NCBI RefSeq assembly: GCF_014842995.1
Contig: NZ_JACYXL010000001.1
Coordinates: forward strand, 807,183-871,182
Direction: 5' to 3'
Origin: Rhodanobacter sp. 7MK24
Lineage (GTDB): Bacteria; Pseudomonadota; Gammaproteobacteria; Xanthomonadales; Rhodanobacteraceae
Length of the DNA stretch: 64,000 nucleotides
The position numbers were made by a program, and so were the translations under genes. Shown here piece by piece: positions 6,901 through 28,390 of this stretch; position 1 is the stretch's first letter, and each line of letters opens with the position of its first letter. The notes under the pieces were generated by a model. That model ran no database searches. It had not been told where the DNA came from and saw only the letters and a program-made list of their open reading frames with translations.

Positions 6901-6929
6901 GCGTGGCGAGTTCGCAGGCTTTTCGGCTC

Positions 6930-7043
6930 GTCATCCCGGCGAAGGCCGGGATCCGGTTTCACTTGCTGTGCGAAGCACTCAAAAAGATCTTGTGTCCTTC
7001 GGACGCGGTATTTGAACTGGACCCCGGCCTTCGCCGGGATGAC
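6930..7043. repeat. Dispersed palindromic element, copy 1 (intact)
   Basis: A 114-bp element bounded by near-perfect inverted arms: GTCATCCCGGCGAAGGCCGG at 6930 and its complement ending at 7043. The arms extend about 30 bases (TCCGGTTTCA against TGAACTGGA) around a 50-base core. Degenerate relatives occur at 13586, 17141 and 28301. In one frame it reads VIPAKAGI...LDPGLRRDD, a translation typical of dispersed repeats in xanthomonad-like genomes. Its position between convergent genes suggests it may also terminate or stabilise transcripts. Confidence 0.8.
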
Positions 7044-7057
7044 AAGCAAGTGAAGCG

Positions 7058-9484
7058 CTACCCCGACGATGGCGCCGCCGGACTGTCCTCCCCCAGCGGC
7101 CCCAGATTGCGCACCACCATGCTCGTCGGCGTGGACAGCGGCAGGTTCTCGGTGCGCAGGCGGGCAAGGATCTCGAACAGCATGTCGCTCTTCACCGCCG
7201 CCACATCGCGTGGGCTGCGCACGTAGGAGGTGATGCTGAAGGTCATCGAGCTGGCGTTGATGTTGTCCAGCCGCACCACCGGAGGCGGATTCTCCAGCGT
7301 GGAGGTATGCGCCTTTAGAACCTCCATCATCAGTTGGCGGGCGCGATCGGCGTCGGTGTCCAGCGGCATCGGCAGCATGATGCGCACGCGGCCCTGCGCG
7401 CTGCCGTGGGTCACGTTGCGCACGTTCTGGGTGATCAGTTGTGAGTTCGGCACGATCACGGTAGAGCGATCTCCCAGCTGGATCTCGGTGGCGCGCACGT
7501 TGATGCGGCGGATGTCGCCCTCTACGTCGCTGGACAGGCTGACCCAGTCGCCCACCTTCACCGGCCGCTCCACCAGCAGGATCAGACCGGAGATGAAGTT
7601 GGACACGATCTGCTGCAGGCCGAAGCCGATGCCTACCGACAACGCGCTGGCGATCCAGGCGATGCTCTGCAGGCTCACGTTCGCCGCGGCCAGCGCCAGC
7701 GCGAACACGAACACACCGCCCAGGTAACCGAGCAGGGTGACCACCGAATTGCGCATGCCCGCGTCCATCGACGTGGTGGGCAGCAACTGGTCCCGCAGCC
7801 AGTTCTTCAGTGCGCGCAACGCCACCAGGCCAAGTACGAACACGGAGATGGCGCCCATGATGGTGCCGGGGCTGATGGGCAATTGGCCCAGTTTGAGCCC
7901 GCTGAACAACTGCGACGTGCGTTGCGCCAACTCCGCCGGGCCGGCGTCGAATCGCGCCAGAACCATCGCCAGCGCAACCAGCGTCAGCAGCACGCGGGTG
8001 ACCCCGGTGAGTACGGTAGAGGCTTGTTGCAGCGTTTCGGAGGAGATGTCGAAACTGGCCTGCAGATGCTGGCTGCTGCGGCTCTGCGGCGACAGTAGGG
8101 TCTCGAACAGGTCGCGCACCAGCTGCAGCAGCAGGTAGAGGCTGGCCACCACCAGGCCAGTCCACAGCATCTGTATCGCCACGAAGAAGCCGAGTGCGAT
8201 GAAGCCCGTGCATACCGACAACCAGCACACCACGACGCCGAGGGCGGCGGCAAAGCCCAATGCACCGACCCACAGTGGCCGGCGCACCCTGCCGGCCTTC
8301 GCTTCGTCGGCTTCGTGCCGCGCATGGCGCAGGCGCAGCAGCGCTGAGCCGACCAGTCCGCTGATCAGCAGCGCCAGCAGCGCGTGCAGCAGCACCGTGG
8401 CCGGGAGGCTGGAGCCGATGCTGCGCACGATGTGCTCGGTGAGGCCGGTCAGCAGTGCCACGCCGCCCAGCAGCCACGGATGGCTGCGCAGCCGTTGCGC
8501 CGTGATGTCCGACAGTGGCGGCAGACGCCACGACGCACGTTTCGCGGAGAGCAGCGCACTGCCCAGCCCGGCCATCAGCGAGGAGATGATCACGACGCGC
8601 ATCGTCGACGTCGCCAGCTGGTCGAGGTCGGTGTCAAGCGTGTCGTTCCAGTTGATGCCCAGGTGCACCAGCTTCGCGGCCAGCCCGATCACCAGCGTGG
8701 TGGACAGCGCCATCACCGCCGCCATTGCGCTGCGGCGCAGATGACCATCCGGCAACCAGCGCGTTGCGATGAATTGCCACAAGTGTTGCAGTCCCCGCCG
8801 GCCACCAGCGAGGAGCAGCACGGCGGCGGCCACGCACAGCAGCAGCGGCGTGCGGTTCGGCGGCTGCCAGGCGTCGTTCAAGCCCTGGGCCCAGCTTGCG
8901 GCGAAGCGCTGGAGACGCGGCATGTCGTTCGGCAGCGAACGCACCTGGTCGACCCAGAACGCGTGGCCCAGCGGCGTGTCGGTGCGTTCAGCCAAGCGCG
9001 CCTGGAACTGGTCGCTGAGCAGGCCGCTGATCTGCTCCATCAGCTGCAGGGCATCGAGGCCCAACGACTTCGCCTGCACGATCTGTGCATTGAGGTTGGT
9101 CTGCGCCTTGTCCAGTTGTCGGCGCTGGGCGGCTACCTCGGGTGCCTCCGACGAAGCGCCCTTGGCCGGGGCTGGGCCGAGCACGGTGAGTTGCGCCTGC
9201 AATGTGGCCATCTGCGGCGCGAGGCCATCGACGACTTGCTGCGCACCGCTCTGCACCTGCATGGCGCGTGCGCGGAGGTCATTCAGCGTGGCGTTGTCGA
9301 GCTTGTCCTGCGGCGTATTCGACAACGCAGCCTTCACCGCGTTGAGCTGGTTGCTCAACTGCTGCAGAGTCTGCGCCGGCGTGGCGGCGGCGCCGGCATT
9401 CGCATCGGCACGTGCCCACGTGGGCGTGGCGACGAAGGCCAAGGCCAGCAGGAGGACCGGGAGCACGGGCAGGCGACGGATCAT
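7058..9484 (-). CDS. Large MscS-family mechanosensitive channel with DUF3772 N-terminus
   Basis: An 808-residue protein from ATG 9484 (an in-frame ATG at 9493 adds three residues). It has a signal peptide (LPVLPVLLLALAFVATPTWA), then a periplasmic helical domain of about 180 residues with coiled-coil character (DUF3772 type), then about ten membrane segments. The pore-lining and beta domain of MscS are evident in SVGIGFGLQQIVSNFISGL and LVERPVKVGDWVSL. The C-terminal cytoplasmic part contains VPNSQLITQNVRN. It is expected to open under membrane tension and release solutes. The gene is divergent from the ABC exporter, with 156 bases between them. Confidence 0.9.
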   Translation of the reverse strand: MIRRLPVLPVLLLALAFVATPTWARADANAGAAATPAQTLQQLSNQLNAVKAALSNTPQDKLDNATLNDLRARAMQVQSGAQQVVDGLAPQMATLQAQLTVLGPAPAKGASSEAPEVAAQRRQLDKAQTNLNAQIVQAKSLGLDALQLMEQISGLLSDQFQARLAERTDTPLGHAFWVDQVRSLPNDMPRLQRFAASWAQGLNDAWQPPNRTPLLLCVAAAVLLLAGGRRGLQHLWQFIATRWLPDGHLRRSAMAAVMALSTTLVIGLAAKLVHLGINWNDTLDTDLDQLATSTMRVVIISSLMAGLGSALLSAKRASWRLPPLSDITAQRLRSHPWLLGGVALLTGLTEHIVRSIGSSLPATVLLHALLALLISGLVGSALLRLRHARHEADEAKAGRVRRPLWVGALGFAAALGVVVCWLSVCTGFIALGFFVAIQMLWTGLVVASLYLLLQLVRDLFETLLSPQSRSSQHLQASFDISSETLQQASTVLTGVTRVLLTLVALAMVLARFDAGPAELAQRTSQLFSGLKLGQLPISPGTIMGAISVFVLGLVALRALKNWLRDQLLPTTSMDAGMRNSVVTLLGYLGGVFVFALALAAANVSLQSIAWIASALSVGIGFGLQQIVSNFISGLILLVERPVKVGDWVSLSSDVEGDIRRINVRATEIQLGDRSTVIVPNSQLITQNVRNVTHGSAQGRVRIMLPMPLDTDADRARQLMMEVLKAHTSTLENPPPVVRLDNINASSMTFSITSYVRSPRDVAAVKSDMLFEILARLRTENLPLSTPTSMVVRNLGPLGEDSPAAPSSG

Positions 9485-9640
9485 GGTAAGCATTCCGGCA
9501 TGATCCCGGCCGCGTCGCAGAGGGTCAACCGAGGCGCGTATCAAAGCAGAGCTGGCGTTCAGCCCATGTGCGTCCTGCCTCTTGTGCGCAAGCGGGTGTG
9601 CACCCACGCTAGGTGTCTCCCTGCATCTCGTGCGGCCGCC

Positions 9641-11485
9641 ATGATCTTCCGCTGGTTCGAATCCCTGATCGACGCTTTCAAGGAACCGGTCGACGGCATG
9701 CCGCCGCAGCCGGTGTGGCGTTTCTACGCGTTCTATCTGCGCCAGGTGTGGCCGGTGTTCGTGGCGGCCATCGTGGTCGGCTTCTGCGTGGCCGTGGTCG
9801 AGGTGTCGTTGTTCGGCTTCATCGGACGCATCGTGGACCTGGCCAAAGGTGTGCCCGCGGCGGATTTCTTCCACCGGCACGGGCGCGAGTTGCTGGGCAT
9901 GGCGCTGGTGGCGCTGGTCGCGCGGCCGGTATTCAACAGCCTGCACGACCTGTTGGTGAACCAGGCCATCGTGCCCAGCCTCACCAACCGCATCCGCTGG
10001 CAGAACCATCGCTACGTGATCCGCCAGAGCCTGGGCTTCTTCCAGAACGACTACGCCGGGCGCATCGCCAACCGCATCATGCAGACCGGCAGCGCGCTGC
10101 GCGAATCGGCGGTGCAGATCGTCGATGCGATCTGGTACGTGGTGATCTACACCGGCAGCGCCGTCGCGCTGTTTGCCCATGCCGACGTGTGGCTGGCCGT
10201 GCCGCTGGTGGTCTGGGTGTTCGCCTACATCGGCCTGCTGTGGATCTTCATACCGCGCATCAAGCAGCGCTCGTGGAAGGCGTCGGAGGCGCGTTCGAAA
10301 ATGATGGGGCGCATCGTGGACGGCTACAGCAACGTGCTCACGCTCAAGCTGTTCGCGCACACGCGTCGCGAGGAGGCCTACGTGGCCGAGGCGATGGGCG
10401 AGCAGACCGACAAGCTGCGCCGGATGACCCGCGTGACCACGGCGATGGATGCCAGCATCACCACGCTCAACGGTTTCCTCATCGCCGGCACGACGGGGCT
10501 GGCGTTGTGGCTGTGGAACGAAGGCCATGTCACGGTGGGCGCGATCGCGCTTTCGACCGGCCTGGTGATCCGCATCAACAACATGTCCGGCTGGATCATG
10601 TGGGTGGTCAACGGCATCTTCGAAAACGTGGGCACGGTGCAGGACGGCATCACCACCATCGCCCAGCCGCGTGCGGTGCAGGACCGCGAAGGTGCGATGC
10701 CGCTGGAAGTGACCAATGGCGCCGTGCACTTCCACGACATCCATTTCCACTATGGCAAGAAGGGCGGCGTGATCGCGGGGCTGGAGCTGGCCGTGCGTGC
10801 GGGCGAGAAGATCGGCCTGGTCGGGCCGAGCGGCGCGGGCAAGTCCACGATGGTGAACGTGCTGCTGCGCCTCTACGACCTGGAGGACGGCCGCATCACC
10901 ATCGACGGCCAGGACGTAGCGCAGGTGACCCAGGAAAGCCTGCGCTCGCAGATCGGCGTGGTGACCCAGGACACCTCGCTGCTGCATCGTTCGATCCGCG
11001 ACAACATCCTGTACGGTCGGCCCGACGCCAGCGAGGCGCAGATCGCCGAGGCCGTGCGCAAGGCGCGCGCCGACGAGTTCATCCCCACCCTGGTCGACGG
11101 CGAGGGCCGCACCGGCTACGAGGCGCTGGTGGGCGAGCGCGGCGTGAAGCTTTCCGGCGGCCAGCGCCAGCGCATCGCGATCGCCCGTGTGCTGCTCAAG
11201 GACGCACCCATCCTGGTGCTGGACGAAGCCACCAGCGCGCTGGATTCCGAGGCCGAGGCGGCGATCCAGGAGAGCCTGGATCTGCTGATGCAAGGCAAGA
11301 CGGTGATCGCCATCGCGCACCGCCTTTCCACCATCGCTCGCATGGATCGCCTCGTGGTACTGGACAAGGGCCACATCGTGGAAACCGGAACGCATGCCGA
11401 ACTGGTCGCGCGCGACGGCTTGTATGCGCGACTGTGGAAGCGGCAGACGGGCGGTTTCGTGGCGGCGGAGGATGAAACGGCTTGA
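9641..11485 (+). CDS. ABC exporter, fused membrane and ATP-binding domains
   Basis: A 614-residue half-transporter. Residues 1-340 hold six membrane segments of a type-1 exporter. The nucleotide-binding domain follows, with Walker A GPSGAGKST, Q-loop VVTQDTSLL, signature LSGGQRQR, Walker B ILVLDEATSALD and switch histidine AIAHRLS. It works as a homodimer in the inner membrane and couples ATP hydrolysis to export. It belongs to the broad MsbA/multidrug-like class and the cargo is not predictable. No accessory membrane-fusion gene is adjacent. The start at 9641 gives a standard MIFRWFESLIDAFK N-terminus. Confidence 0.92.
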   Translation: MIFRWFESLIDAFKEPVDGMPPQPVWRFYAFYLRQVWPVFVAAIVVGFCVAVVEVSLFGFIGRIVDLAKGVPAADFFHRHGRELLGMALVALVARPVFNSLHDLLVNQAIVPSLTNRIRWQNHRYVIRQSLGFFQNDYAGRIANRIMQTGSALRESAVQIVDAIWYVVIYTGSAVALFAHADVWLAVPLVVWVFAYIGLLWIFIPRIKQRSWKASEARSKMMGRIVDGYSNVLTLKLFAHTRREEAYVAEAMGEQTDKLRRMTRVTTAMDASITTLNGFLIAGTTGLALWLWNEGHVTVGAIALSTGLVIRINNMSGWIMWVVNGIFENVGTVQDGITTIAQPRAVQDREGAMPLEVTNGAVHFHDIHFHYGKKGGVIAGLELAVRAGEKIGLVGPSGAGKSTMVNVLLRLYDLEDGRITIDGQDVAQVTQESLRSQIGVVTQDTSLLHRSIRDNILYGRPDASEAQIAEAVRKARADEFIPTLVDGEGRTGYEALVGERGVKLSGGQRQRIAIARVLLKDAPILVLDEATSALDSEAEAAIQESLDLLMQGKTVIAIAHRLSTIARMDRLVVLDKGHIVETGTHAELVARDGLYARLWKRQTGGFVAAEDETA

Positions 11486-13585: not shown

Positions 13586-13661
13586 TCGCCATTCCGGCGC
13601 AAGCCGGGATCTGGCGAGTCCTTCCATGCAATTCCCGGAATCCGGGTTCCAGCTTGACCGT
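13586..13661. repeat. Dispersed palindromic element, degenerate copy 2
   Basis: The left arm CGCCATTCCGGCGCAAGCCG and the right part TCCCGGAATCCGGGTTCCAG resemble the ends of the 6930 element, but the pairing is broken. It lies between convergent genes, just after a terminator. Confidence 0.45.
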
Positions 13662-16482: not shown

Positions 16483-16908
16483 ATGAGCACGCAAACCACA
16501 CCCCTCAGCATCGGTGCCGTCGCCAAGCGCGCCGGCGTGGCCATCGACACCATCCGCTACTACGAGCGCGAAGGCCTGCTGCCCGAGCCGTCGCGGCGAG
16601 CTTCCGGCTATCGCAGCTACGGCGAAAGCGCCGTAGCGCAGTTGCGCTTCATTCGGCGCGCCAAGGACATGGGTTTCACGCTGGAGGAAATCCGCGACCT
16701 GCTGGCGCTGTCGGCGGATCGCCAGCGCGGCGTGAAGGCGGTGAAGAAGCGCGCCGAGCAGCGGCTAGCGGCCATCGAGCAACGCATCGCGGAACTGCAG
16801 CGCGTGCGCGACGGGCTGGCGCAACTGGTGTCCTCCTGCCCCGGTCACGGCAAGCCGGAGGAGTGCCCGATCCTGCGCGCGTTGAGCGACGAGGAGGCGC
16901 GCGCATGA
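16483..16908 (+). CDS. MerR-family metal-responsive regulator (CueR/CadR type)
   Basis: A 141-residue regulator. Residues 8-75 are the winged helix-turn-helix ([20 protein letters not shown] and [16 protein letters not shown]), followed by the long dimerisation helix. Near the end [10 protein letters not shown] forms a metal-binding loop like that of CueR, ZntR and CadR. It overlaps the ATPase start by 4 bases, so the two are one operon under the MerR-type promoter at 16445. Because the pump is of the copper/silver class, monovalent copper, silver or gold is the likely signal. No Shine-Dalgarno sequence precedes the ATG. Confidence 0.9.
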
Positions 16909-19514
16909 GCGGCCAGGGCAATTGCTGTGCGTCGTCAGGCAGCGCGAACGTCGCGGCGCGCGATCCGGTGTGCGGGATGACGGTCGATCCGGCGACCTCG
17001 CAGCATCGCAGCGTGCATGCGGGCAGCGAGGTGCATTTCTGCTGCGCCGAATGCAAGGCGAAGTTCGAGGCGGAGCCGGGGCGTTATCCCGGTGGCGGGA
17101 CGGGAGTGGCGGGCGGCTGCTGCTCGTCCGAGGCGATGCCGTCCTTCCCGCGAAAGCTGGAGTCCAACGACTTCGGTTCAAAAGCCGCCGAGTCGCTGGA
17201 CTCCGACCTTCGCCGGGACGACGAGCCAGGGCATGCGCTGGCGAAAGACCCGGTGTGCGGCATGGCCGTTGATCCGCAAACCACGGCGCACCATGCCACG
17301 CACGACGGCCACGACTACCACTTCTGCGCCGCACGCTGTCGCGAGAAATTCGTGGCCGATCCCTCGGCTTACCTCGGTGGGCGCCGACCTTCGTCGCCGG
17401 TACAAGCCGATGCCGTCTACACCTGTCCGATGCATCCCGAGGTGCAGCAAATCGGCCCCGGCGATTGCCCCAGGTGCGGCATGGCGCTGGAGCCGATGGT
17501 GCCTGCGCTGGACGAGGGCGACGGTGGCGAGCTGTGCACCATGGCGCGGCGCTTCTGGACGCTTTTTGCATTGACCCTGCCGGTATTCCTACTGGCGATG
17601 GGGCCGCACGTGTTCGGTTGGCACTTGCCTGTGCCGGCCGGCTGGGTCGAGGCGCTGTTTTCCAGCGTAGTGGTGCTGTGGGGCGGCGCGCCGTTCTTCG
17701 CGCGCGGCTGGCGTTCGCTCAAGCCATGGTCGCCCAACATGTACACGCTGATTGCGCTGGGCACCGGCGTGGCATGGGCGTTCAGTGCGGTGGCCTTTCT
17801 CGCGCCGGGTCTGTTCCCGGCGGGTTTGCGCGACGCGCACGGTCGCATGGGCGTGTATTTCGAATCGGCGGCAGTGATCGTCACCCTGGTGACGTTGGGC
17901 GATTTCCTCGAACTGCGTGCGCGCCGTCGTACCGGCTCGGCGCTCAAGGCGCTGCTTGGGCTGGCGCCGAAGACGGCGCGGCGCGTTGCCGCCGACGGCA
18001 GCGAATCCGACGTGCCGCTGGACGAGGTACGCGTGGGTGACACCCTGCGCGTGCGCCCCGGCGAGAAGGTGCCGGTGGACGGCGAGGTGATCGAGGGCGG
18101 CAGCCACGTGGACGAGTCGATGCTCACCGGCGAAGCCATGCCGGTGGCGAAGGGCAAGGGCGACATGCTGGCCGGCGGCACCTTGAACCGCGAAGGCGCA
18201 TTGCTGATGCGTGCGCACAAGGTCGGCAGCGAAACCCTGCTGGCGCAGATCGTCGGCCTCGTCGCGCAGGCCCAGCGCAGCAAGGCGCCATTGCAGCGCA
18301 TGGCCGACAAGGTGGCCGCATGGTTCGTGCCCGCGGTGGCGGCGGTGGCCGGGCTGGCGTTCGCTGCATGGATGATGCTCGGGCCGCCGCCGCCATTCGC
18401 GCATGCGCTGGTCGCGGCGGTGTCGGTGCTCATCATTGCCTGCCCCTGTGCGCTGGGCTTGGCCACGCCGATCTCCATCATGGTGGCCAGCGGGCGCGGC
18501 GCGCAGCTCGGCGTGTTGTTCAAGGACGCCGGTGCCATCGAGGCGCTGCGGGGCATCGATACCCTGGTGCTGGACAAGACCGGCACGCTCACCGAAGGCA
18601 GGCCCGCGCTCACCGAAGTGGTGGCGCTGAACGGCCAGCCGCGTGAACGGCTGCTGGCGCTGGCCGCCGCACTGGAGCGTCGCAGCGAGCACCCGCTGGC
18701 ACATGCCATCGTGGACGCGGCAGACAACGAAGGCGTGGCGTCGCTGGATGCGGCCGAATTCCATGCGCTCGCCGGCCGCGGCGTCGTCGCCACGGTGGAT
18801 GGCGCCAGCGTGGCACTGGGCAATGCGAAGCTGCTTGGAGAAATCGGGGTCGCGATCGAGCCGGGGGCAAGCCAGCGCGCGGGTGCGCTGCGTGCGCAGG
18901 GCGCCACGGTGGTGCATCTCGTCGTGGACGGTTCGCTGGTTGCGCTGTTCGCGGTGGCGGATCGCGTCAAGCCCGAGGCGCGGCGGATCGTGGGGGCGCT
19001 CAAGGCGTCAGGCGTGCGCGTCGTGATGCTCACCGGCGACAACGCCACCACCGCGCAGGCGGTGGCGCAGGAACTGGATATTGGCGAGGTGCACGCCGAG
19101 GTTTCGCCGGCCGACAAGGCGGCAGCGGTAAACGCCTTGCGTGCGCAAGGCCGCAAGGTGGCGATGGCTGGCGACGGCGTCAACGACGCGCCCGCGCTGG
19201 CGGCTGCCGATGTCGGCATCGCGATGGGCAACGGCAGCGACGTGGCGATGGAGAGTGCGCAAGTCACCCTCGTGAAGGGCGATCTGGCTGCGATCCTGCG
19301 TGCCCGCTCGCTGTCGCGCGCTACGGTGCGCAATATCCGCCAGAACCTGTTCTTCGCTTTCGCCTACAACGGTATCGGCGTCCCGCTGGCGGCCGGCCTG
19401 CTGTATCCGGTGTTCGGCATCACGCTCTCGCCGATGATCGCCGCGCTGGCGATGAGCCTGAGCTCGGTGTCGGTGGTGGGCAATGCGCTGCGTCTGCGTG
19501 GCACACGGCTATGA
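16905..19514 (+). CDS. P1B-1 copper/silver-exporting ATPase with YHS and metal-binding N-terminus
   Basis: An 869-residue inner membrane pump. In place of HMA domains the N-terminus carries two YHS domains (about 20-60 and 114-157, each with DPVCGM and paired cysteines) and a CPMH...CPRCGM zinc-ribbon-like metal-binding domain (171-197). The core has the TGEAMP actuator loop, Cys513-Pro-Cys515 in membrane helix 6, phosphorylated Asp557 (DKTGT), SEHPL, MLTGDN and [20 protein letters not shown] and [11 protein letters not shown] are the helix 7 and 8 signatures of Cu(I)/Ag(I) pumps. Residues 79-107, between the YHS domains, are encoded by a palindromic repeat (17141-17222). It is co-transcribed with the overlapping merR gene. 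Confidence 0.93.
17141..17222. repeat. Dispersed palindromic element, copy 3, inside the copper ATPase gene
   Basis: An 82-bp element with 32-base inverted arms: 25 of 32 positions match between the start at 17141 and the complement of the end at 17222. It is read in frame as [14 protein letters not shown]...DLRRDDE (residues 80-107), a linker between two YHS domains. The same family occurs outside genes at 6930, 13586 and 28301. Confidence 0.8.
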
Positions 19515-26911: not shown

Positions 26912-28285
26912 ATGGCGCTTACCCCGGCCCGCACCATGCCTGGCGTGCTCGAGCTGCTGCCGCTCGACCAGATCGCGTTCCAGCGCATGCTCGACACCAT
27001 CCGCCGCAACTACGAGCGCTTCGGCTTCCTGCCGGTGGAAACGCCGGCGATCGAATACGCCGACGTGCTGCTGACCAAGACCGGCGGCGAGACCGAGCGG
27101 CAGGTGTATTTCGTGCAGTCGACCGGCGCGCTGGAGCAGGGCGAGAAGCCCGATCTCGCGCTGCGCTTCGACCTCACCGTGCCGCTGGCGCGCTACGTGG
27201 CCGAGCACGAGCGCGATCTGAACTTCCCGTTCCGCCGCTACCAGATGCAGCGCGTGTACCGCGGCGAGCGCGCCCAGCGCGGCCGCTTCCGCGAGTTCTA
27301 CCAGTGCGACATCGACGTGATCGGCAAGGACAGCCTGTCGATCCGTTACGACGCCGAGTTGCCGGCAGTGATCTACAGCGTGTTCCGCGAGCTCGCCATC
27401 GGCCCGTTCACCATCCAGCTCAACAACCGTAAGCTGATGCGCGGTTATTTCGAGAGCCTGGGTGTGGCCGATGCGGAGCAGCAGATGCTGGTGCTGCGCG
27501 AGGTGGACAAGCTGGACAAGCGCGGGGCCGATTACGTGCGCGACACGCTCACCGGCGAAGGCTTCGGCCTGGCGGCCGCGGCGGTGGAGAAAATCCTGGC
27601 CTTCGTGCAGGTGCGTTCCACATCGCTGCAGGATGCCTTCGACAAGCTCGACGCGCTGGGTGCCGGTCCGGAAGCGCTGGAACAGGGGCGCGCCGAGCTG
27701 AAGGAAGTGCTCGGCCTGATCCATGCGCTCGGCGTGCCGGAAACGCATTACGCGCTGAACCTGTCGATCGCGCGCGGCCTCGACTACTACACGGGCATCG
27801 TCTACGAGACCACGCTCAACGAGCATCCGCAGATCGGTTCGATCTGCTCCGGTGGCCGTTACGAAAATCTTGCCGCCCAGTACACCAAGTCACACCTGCC
27901 GGGCGTGGGCATCTCCATCGGCCTCAGCCGCCTGTATTGGCAATTGCGCGAGGCCGGCCTCGTCGGCACGGCGCAGAGCACGGTGGACGTGCTGGTCACG
28001 CAGATGGACGAGGCGCAGCTGCCAGCTTATCTCGCGCTGGCCGGCGAGCTGCGTGCCGCCGGCATCGCCACCGAGGCGGTGCTGGAAGCAGGCAAGCTGG
28101 GCAAGCAATTCAAATACGCCGACCGCGCCGGCATCCGCTTCGCCGTGGTGCTGGGCGAGGACGAGCTCGCCAAGGGCGTGGTCACCGTGAAGGACCTGCG
28201 CCGAGGCGACCAGTTCGAGGTTGCGCGTGCCGAGCTGGTCAAGACGTTGCGGGTGGAGCTGGAGCAGGCGGCGGCAATGGGCTGA
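26912..28285 (+). CDS. hisS: Histidyl-tRNA synthetase
   Basis: A 457-residue class II aminoacyl-tRNA synthetase. Motif 2 reads [20 protein letters not shown] and continues to [11 protein letters not shown]. The histidine-specific loop is [13 protein letters not shown], and motif 3 lies in [13 protein letters not shown]. The C-terminal anticodon domain ([20 protein letters not shown]) is complete. It charges tRNA-His using ATP. It is separated from the convergently transcribed tRNA-Pro by 134 bases that hold its promoter, and is followed by a palindromic repeat and an ammonia-lyase gene. Confidence 0.97.
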
Positions 28286-28300
28286 AGCGGCTCTTTGCTT

Positions 28301-28390
28301 GTCATCCCAGCAAAAGCTGGGAACCAGTGCCTGCAGACCGTTTCGCATTGCAGGAAATGCACTGGATTCCTGCTTTCGCAGAAACGGCGA
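28301..28390. repeat. Dispersed palindromic element, copy 4
   Basis: The left arm GTCATCCCAGCAAAAGCTGG...CCAGTGC at 28301 pairs imperfectly with the complement of GCACTGG...GAAACGGCG ending at 28390. It is in the same family as the 6930 copy. It sits between hisS and the ammonia-lyase, and the lyase frame stays open through it for 47 codons, though a better start lies downstream. Confidence 0.65.

Follow-up and report, generated by a model that had tools for sequence, protein, structure and literature searches.

Palindromic repeat within a copper-type ATPase gene

The DNA analysed here, called the window, is a stretch of 64,000 nucleotides from Rhodanobacter sp. 7MK24 (G000:C11:807183-871182, G000 being the source genome), and it carries on the plus strand a gene for a P1B copper-type ATPase (16905-19514) recognized from its open reading frame, domain models, and translation. 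The frame is open over 869 aa, encodes two YHS stretches together with HMBD, E1-E2 ATPase, and hydrolase domains, and retains the DKTGT, TGE, CPC, and GDGVND motifs intact. The protein scored 599.9 bits against TIGR01511, the model for copper P-type ATPases (cut-off 397), and the family models point to copper as the probable substrate of the pump. Its start is overlapped by 4 nt by the gene of a MerR-family, CueR-like regulator (16483-16908, plus strand), for which the best model was CueR at 133.7 bits, just below the cut-off of 147.4. The first YHS domain spans approximately residues 19-63 (16959-17093, plus strand), with limits judged from the predicted fold, and the second spans residues 114-159 (17244-17381, plus strand). 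The number of YHS domains varies among orthologs, with one in G013 and three in G017 (L037, L253).

Between the two YHS domains lies an imperfect palindrome of 84 bp (17140-17223, plus strand), read in frame as ATPase codons 79-106, with the left arm translated as PSFPRKLES. An earlier note on this DNA had placed the palindrome at 17141-17222 (82 bp) and at residues 79-107; its 28 residues between two YHS domains were confirmed, while the ends and the residue range had to be redrawn as given here. The two arms, at 17140-17172 and 17191-17223, measure 33 nt each and show 79% complementarity. Folded as single-strand DNA, the palindrome reaches −26.8 kcal/mol compared to −19.1 ± 2.6 kcal/mol for shuffled sequences (z = −3.0), and none of 200 shuffles folded as low. 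AlphaFold2 gave pLDDT values below 50 for residues 65-107 and of 92-97 for the YHS domains, so that the insert falls within a predicted disordered linker.

Further copies were gathered by pattern, BLAST, and covariance searches. BLAST within the same genome returned other copies of the ATPase palindrome, the best at 74% over 86 bp (E 2e-6), and the best full-length relative in the genome is 73% identical. A degenerate pattern of the arms matched 111 times in the genome, compared to 0 times for a reversed-pattern control. From the source genome 46 dimers were extracted, single units being present too, and an alignment of 27 copies (24 from the source genome and 3 from G002) was used to build a covariance model, which found ~80 sites in the genome (155 matches with both strands counted). 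The ATPase copy scored 65 bits against this model, a value that is partly circular because the copy is in the training set, while the BLAST match is not circular. The arms, the fold, the BLAST matches, the ~80 model sites, and the intact 869-aa frame bear out what the earlier note had proposed, namely that a palindrome of a dispersed family lies inside the P1B ATPase gene without breaking its frame. Rfam offered nothing beyond a microRNA match below threshold (23 bits vs 100).

Two other full copies are present in the window, both intergenic and neither assigned to a strand: one of 116 bp (6929-7044), 13 bp beyond the 3′ end of ORF 7058-11395 (minus strand), and one of 90 bp (28300-28389), 14 bp beyond the 3′ end of ORF 26912-28285 (plus strand). 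A lone degenerate arm-like sequence at 13587-13614 (20/28 matches) is possibly a decayed unit or a chance resemblance.

Structure of the repeat and its relation to CGTC repeats

The family unit comprises a CGTC tag, a stem of 8 bp with a 4-nt loop, and a tail of CCA. In the ATPase copy, the left unit (17140-17167, plus strand) has the CGTC tag, a degenerate 8-bp stem around a GAAA loop, and the CCA tail; it is followed by a 28-nt spacer (17168-17195, plus strand), whose ends CGACT/AGTCG pair too, and by the right unit, an inverted copy (17196-17223, minus strand). Among the 27 aligned copies the terminal tag begins with C in 22 and with T in 5, the left GTC is invariant, and in the tail CC is invariant and A is present in most; each end of the ATPase copy carries CGTC. 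The unit hairpins covary, with 42 cells changed on both sides compared to 12.3 ± 3.2 after shuffling (above all shuffles), and 94% of stem cells are paired in register vs 23-47% after sliding. The ATPase copy has lost stem pairs in both its left and right units, and this degeneracy makes its age and mode of arrival uncertain.

CGTC-tagged REPs have been divided into families CGTC-1 to CGTC-4, and the published traits of CGTC-1 are an unpaired CGTC or TGTC, an 8-bp stem, a 4-nt loop, a CCA tail, and head-to-head dimers (Di Nocera et al. 2013, PMC3733652). According to the same paper, CGTC repeats are typically intergenic, close to gene 3′ ends, and apparently without a dedicated transposase. 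The family described here likewise has terminal CGTC (TGTC in some copies), AT in the first two stem pairs, and a CCA-like tail, and it forms head-to-head dimers that are mostly intergenic and without a tyrosine transposase. The position of the two other full window copies 13-14 bp past ORF ends also matches the CGTC-1 location near gene 3′ ends, a comparison that covers these two copies. Judged by its sequence, the palindrome has all the tested structural features of a CGTC-type REP head-to-head dimer. The Y1 transposase model (PF01797) had no match in the source genome and is represented in 8 of the 15 congeneric genomes. An outer motif near TTTGCT precedes CGTC in many dimers of the source genome; the mobile unit may thus be longer than the tagged palindrome, and the right end of the ATPase copy may extend a few bp further.

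Recurrence of inserts in the same linker

An ortholog of the ATPase is present in 14 of the 15 congeneric genomes, and most of these proteins have a linker of variable, often His-rich sequence between two YHS domains. Palindromic repeats were found in this linker in 3 of the 14 orthologs (G000, G002, and G008), and no recognizable repeat in the remaining 11. The earlier note had reasoned that a linker shared by all orthologs, with no likeness to intergenic palindromes, would point to chance or to an old resemblance; the comparison went the other way, since most congeneric orthologs lack a recognizable repeat and those of G002 and G008 have repeats of other kinds. In the G002 linker lies a CGTC dimer belonging to a different subfamily; it shares 62% identity with the G000 copy and up to 88% with other copies from G002. 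The G008 linker holds an 86-bp in-frame insert of an unrelated palindrome family, with 46 matches in G008, the best of them 95% identical. This second repeat family of ~86 bp, CCCTCTCCC...GGGAGAGGGG (L026, G008:C21:570813-570901), also has 42 matches in G002 and 9 in the source genome.

A tree of the ATPase core joined G000 and G008 as sisters (98/97) and placed G002 outside the clade of G000, G008, and the insert-free G009. The G002 copy is translated in the VIPAQAG frame, whereas the left arm of the G000 copy uses the SFPRK frame, and no one peptide is therefore conserved. On these sequences the three linker inserts are of distinct origin, and three independent insertions would be the simplest reading. 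No palindrome was recognizable by eye in the linkers of 19 orthologs from genera elsewhere in the family, and the variability of the linker among orthologs precludes reconstruction of the empty site at the ATPase insert. Since the ATPase gene was picked for its first insert, the recurrence suggests, but does not prove, a permissive or preferred site.

Reading frames and gene residence of the family

The earlier note had described one long open frame, VIPAKAG...LDPGLRRDD, as kept by the other copies as well, and had suggested that the element may be selected for tolerance in genes. The left arm of the ATPase copy reads PSFPRKLES instead, and among 66 readings of the 33 dimers no longer than 100 bp, the three frames are about equally free of stops (43 open in frame 0, 33 in frame 1, and 31 in frame 2). 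The total of 107 open readings compares to 92.6 ± 6.8 for whole-sequence shuffles (14/500 as high), to 100.4 ± 4.9 when only the spacer was shuffled (57/500), and to 98.8 ± 5.0 when the phase of shuffled spacers was varied too (26/500), and the excess is at most slight and mainly due to the arms. In the consensus, one arm is free of stops in three frames and the other in two, and the commonest dimer length, 88 bp, is not divisible by three. The search for in-frame copies across the source genome that the earlier note called for found the ATPase copy alone, among 125 arm sites, to have coding-like composition on both sides and an open frame, by a composition heuristic that could overlook copies lying in genes of atypical make-up. 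With openness scarcely above shuffles and 1 of 125 arm sites found in a gene, selection for tolerance is unsupported, and permissiveness of the linker accounts for the insertion better than design of the element.

Two kinds of candidate were rejected as further intragenic copies. An apparent second case, preceding an endonuclease III domain (L006), in fact lies before the true nth start, in the gap after the upstream gene, and the other long ORFs that cross copies have no Pfam domain and have shadow-frame composition. The CGTC dimer upstream of nth (G000:C5:55342-55421; L233-L238) is an unusually stable intergenic copy: G000, G005, and G014 share it in the same position, and G008 lacks it. The empty site in G008 was set aside as a guide to the insertion ends, given near-repeat flanks (CCATGAAACG) that make deletion as likely as original absence.

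Probable insertion, toleration, and drift

That the ATPase palindrome belongs to a dispersed family, is read in frame, and occupies a site that differs in relatives is a matter of observation. We hold it highly probable (roughly 0.87) that a CGTC-type REP dimer inserted in frame into the YHS-YHS linker, was tolerated there, and then decayed and drifted, the inserts of the relatives being independent. By this account, a short, non-autonomous, and normally intergenic dimer would have entered the stretch coding for the linker, preserving the frame and adding no stop, and the protein would tolerate it because the linker is long, disordered, and variable between species. The copy would then have persisted as 28 translated residues, decaying from the family consensus and drifting toward GC-rich third codon positions, while in two relatives the linker would have gained other palindromic repeats by separate events. 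We infer that a mobile process made the insertion, that toleration was the cause of its retention, and that its effect is near neutral; rare insertions, retained where the linker permits, followed by drift toward host codon usage, make the simplest account. The GC content at third positions of the frame used is 0.81 in the ATPase copy vs 0.67 ± 0.07 for the family, with 2 of 22 readings as high, as computed on the small sample of 28 codons and, for the family, on members whose length is a multiple of three and which were read in this frame, the ATPase copy included. This value agrees with long residence in a translated gene.

That the likeness of the linker to the palindrome family is due to chance or to ancient descent instead of insertion is hardly credible. 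The best full-length relative is only 73% identical, as this explanation would have it, but the BLAST E value of 2e-6 to another copy, the DNA fold at z = −3, and the 65 bits to the model, even with the copy in the training set, all stand against it, as does the finding that no other congeneric ortholog shares the linker sequence. Selection of the element itself for harmlessness inside genes, through one long frame kept open, we judge very improbable: openness slightly above whole-sequence shuffles (14/500 as high) and consensus arms free of stops in three and in two frames, respectively, would suit it, but no frame is clearly favored, spacer shuffles are almost as open, 88 bp, the commonest length, does not divide by three, and a single arm site of 125 was found in a gene. 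It is also improbable, though less so, that the insert was kept as a useful linker whose spacing or charge tunes metal delivery by the YHS domains. Three independent palindromes in one linker among 14 congeneric orthologs, the host-like third positions of the ATPase copy, and the place of the G000 insert where relatives have a His-rich stretch would all fit a useful peptide; against this, the three species have inserted peptides unlike one another in both frame and sequence, so that no common property is conserved, and the linker is predicted to be disordered and is freely variable elsewhere.

An unlikely explanation, though less so than these, is that the linker DNA attracts palindromes through its sequence or structure, beyond mere permissiveness. 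Three separate inserts from two unrelated families in one linker, set beside one intragenic case found among ~80 copies, would agree with such a hot spot, as would the different REPs described near the same recB site in two Xanthomonas species (PMC3733652); yet no common target motif was identified, the inserts enter at different points with respect to the PLALQV segment, and the gene was chosen after one insert was seen. The stronger form, in which unrelated palindromes repeatedly enter a true hot spot, displace the His-rich stretch, and remodel metal handling between species, seems to us slightly more doubtful.

With insertion and toleration as the preferred reading, the ATPase gene would offer a clear case, with comparative evidence, of a selfish palindrome turned protein sequence, and three independent inserts in one linker would amount to a natural experiment on mobile palindromes as raw material for interdomain linkers.

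Relation to other palindromic repeats

The family shares with published CGTC REPs the tag, the lengths of stem and loop, the CCA tail, the head-to-head arrangement of dimers, a location near gene 3′ ends, and the apparent lack of a dedicated transposase, and occasional intragenic in-frame CGTC copies encoding 20-30 residues have already been reported (PMC3733652). It differs in the target, here a copper ATPase linker entered independently by two unrelated families, which goes beyond what the passages of PMC3733652 consulted here describe, although its recB case, with different REPs at about one site, comes near. The case itself is well documented and of a known kind; what is new is the repeated occurrence of unrelated palindromes in a single linker.

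The earlier note had likened the insert to the palindromic elements (RPEs) of Rickettsia, and the comparison was apt, as R. conorii RPE-6 and RPE-4 have been classed as CGTC-1 and CGTC-4 repeats (PMC3733652); kinship with them would rest on that classification. RPEs, as first reported by Ogata et al., are ~150 bp with nearly half in genes, and they too occur as palindromes in frame inside protein genes, affecting unrelated proteins (PMC10969869); gene residence is frequent there, whereas here the search located 1 of ~80 copies, of 84 bp, within a gene. Short palindromic dimers regarded as mobile DNA also include the GTAG REPs with RAYT transposases, from which the present family departs in that its tag is CGTC and no Y1 transposase gene was found in the source genome. 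Neisseria dRS3 is likewise classed as CGTC-1 (PMC3733652) but occurs mostly in large clusters, whereas the dimers described here are dispersed.
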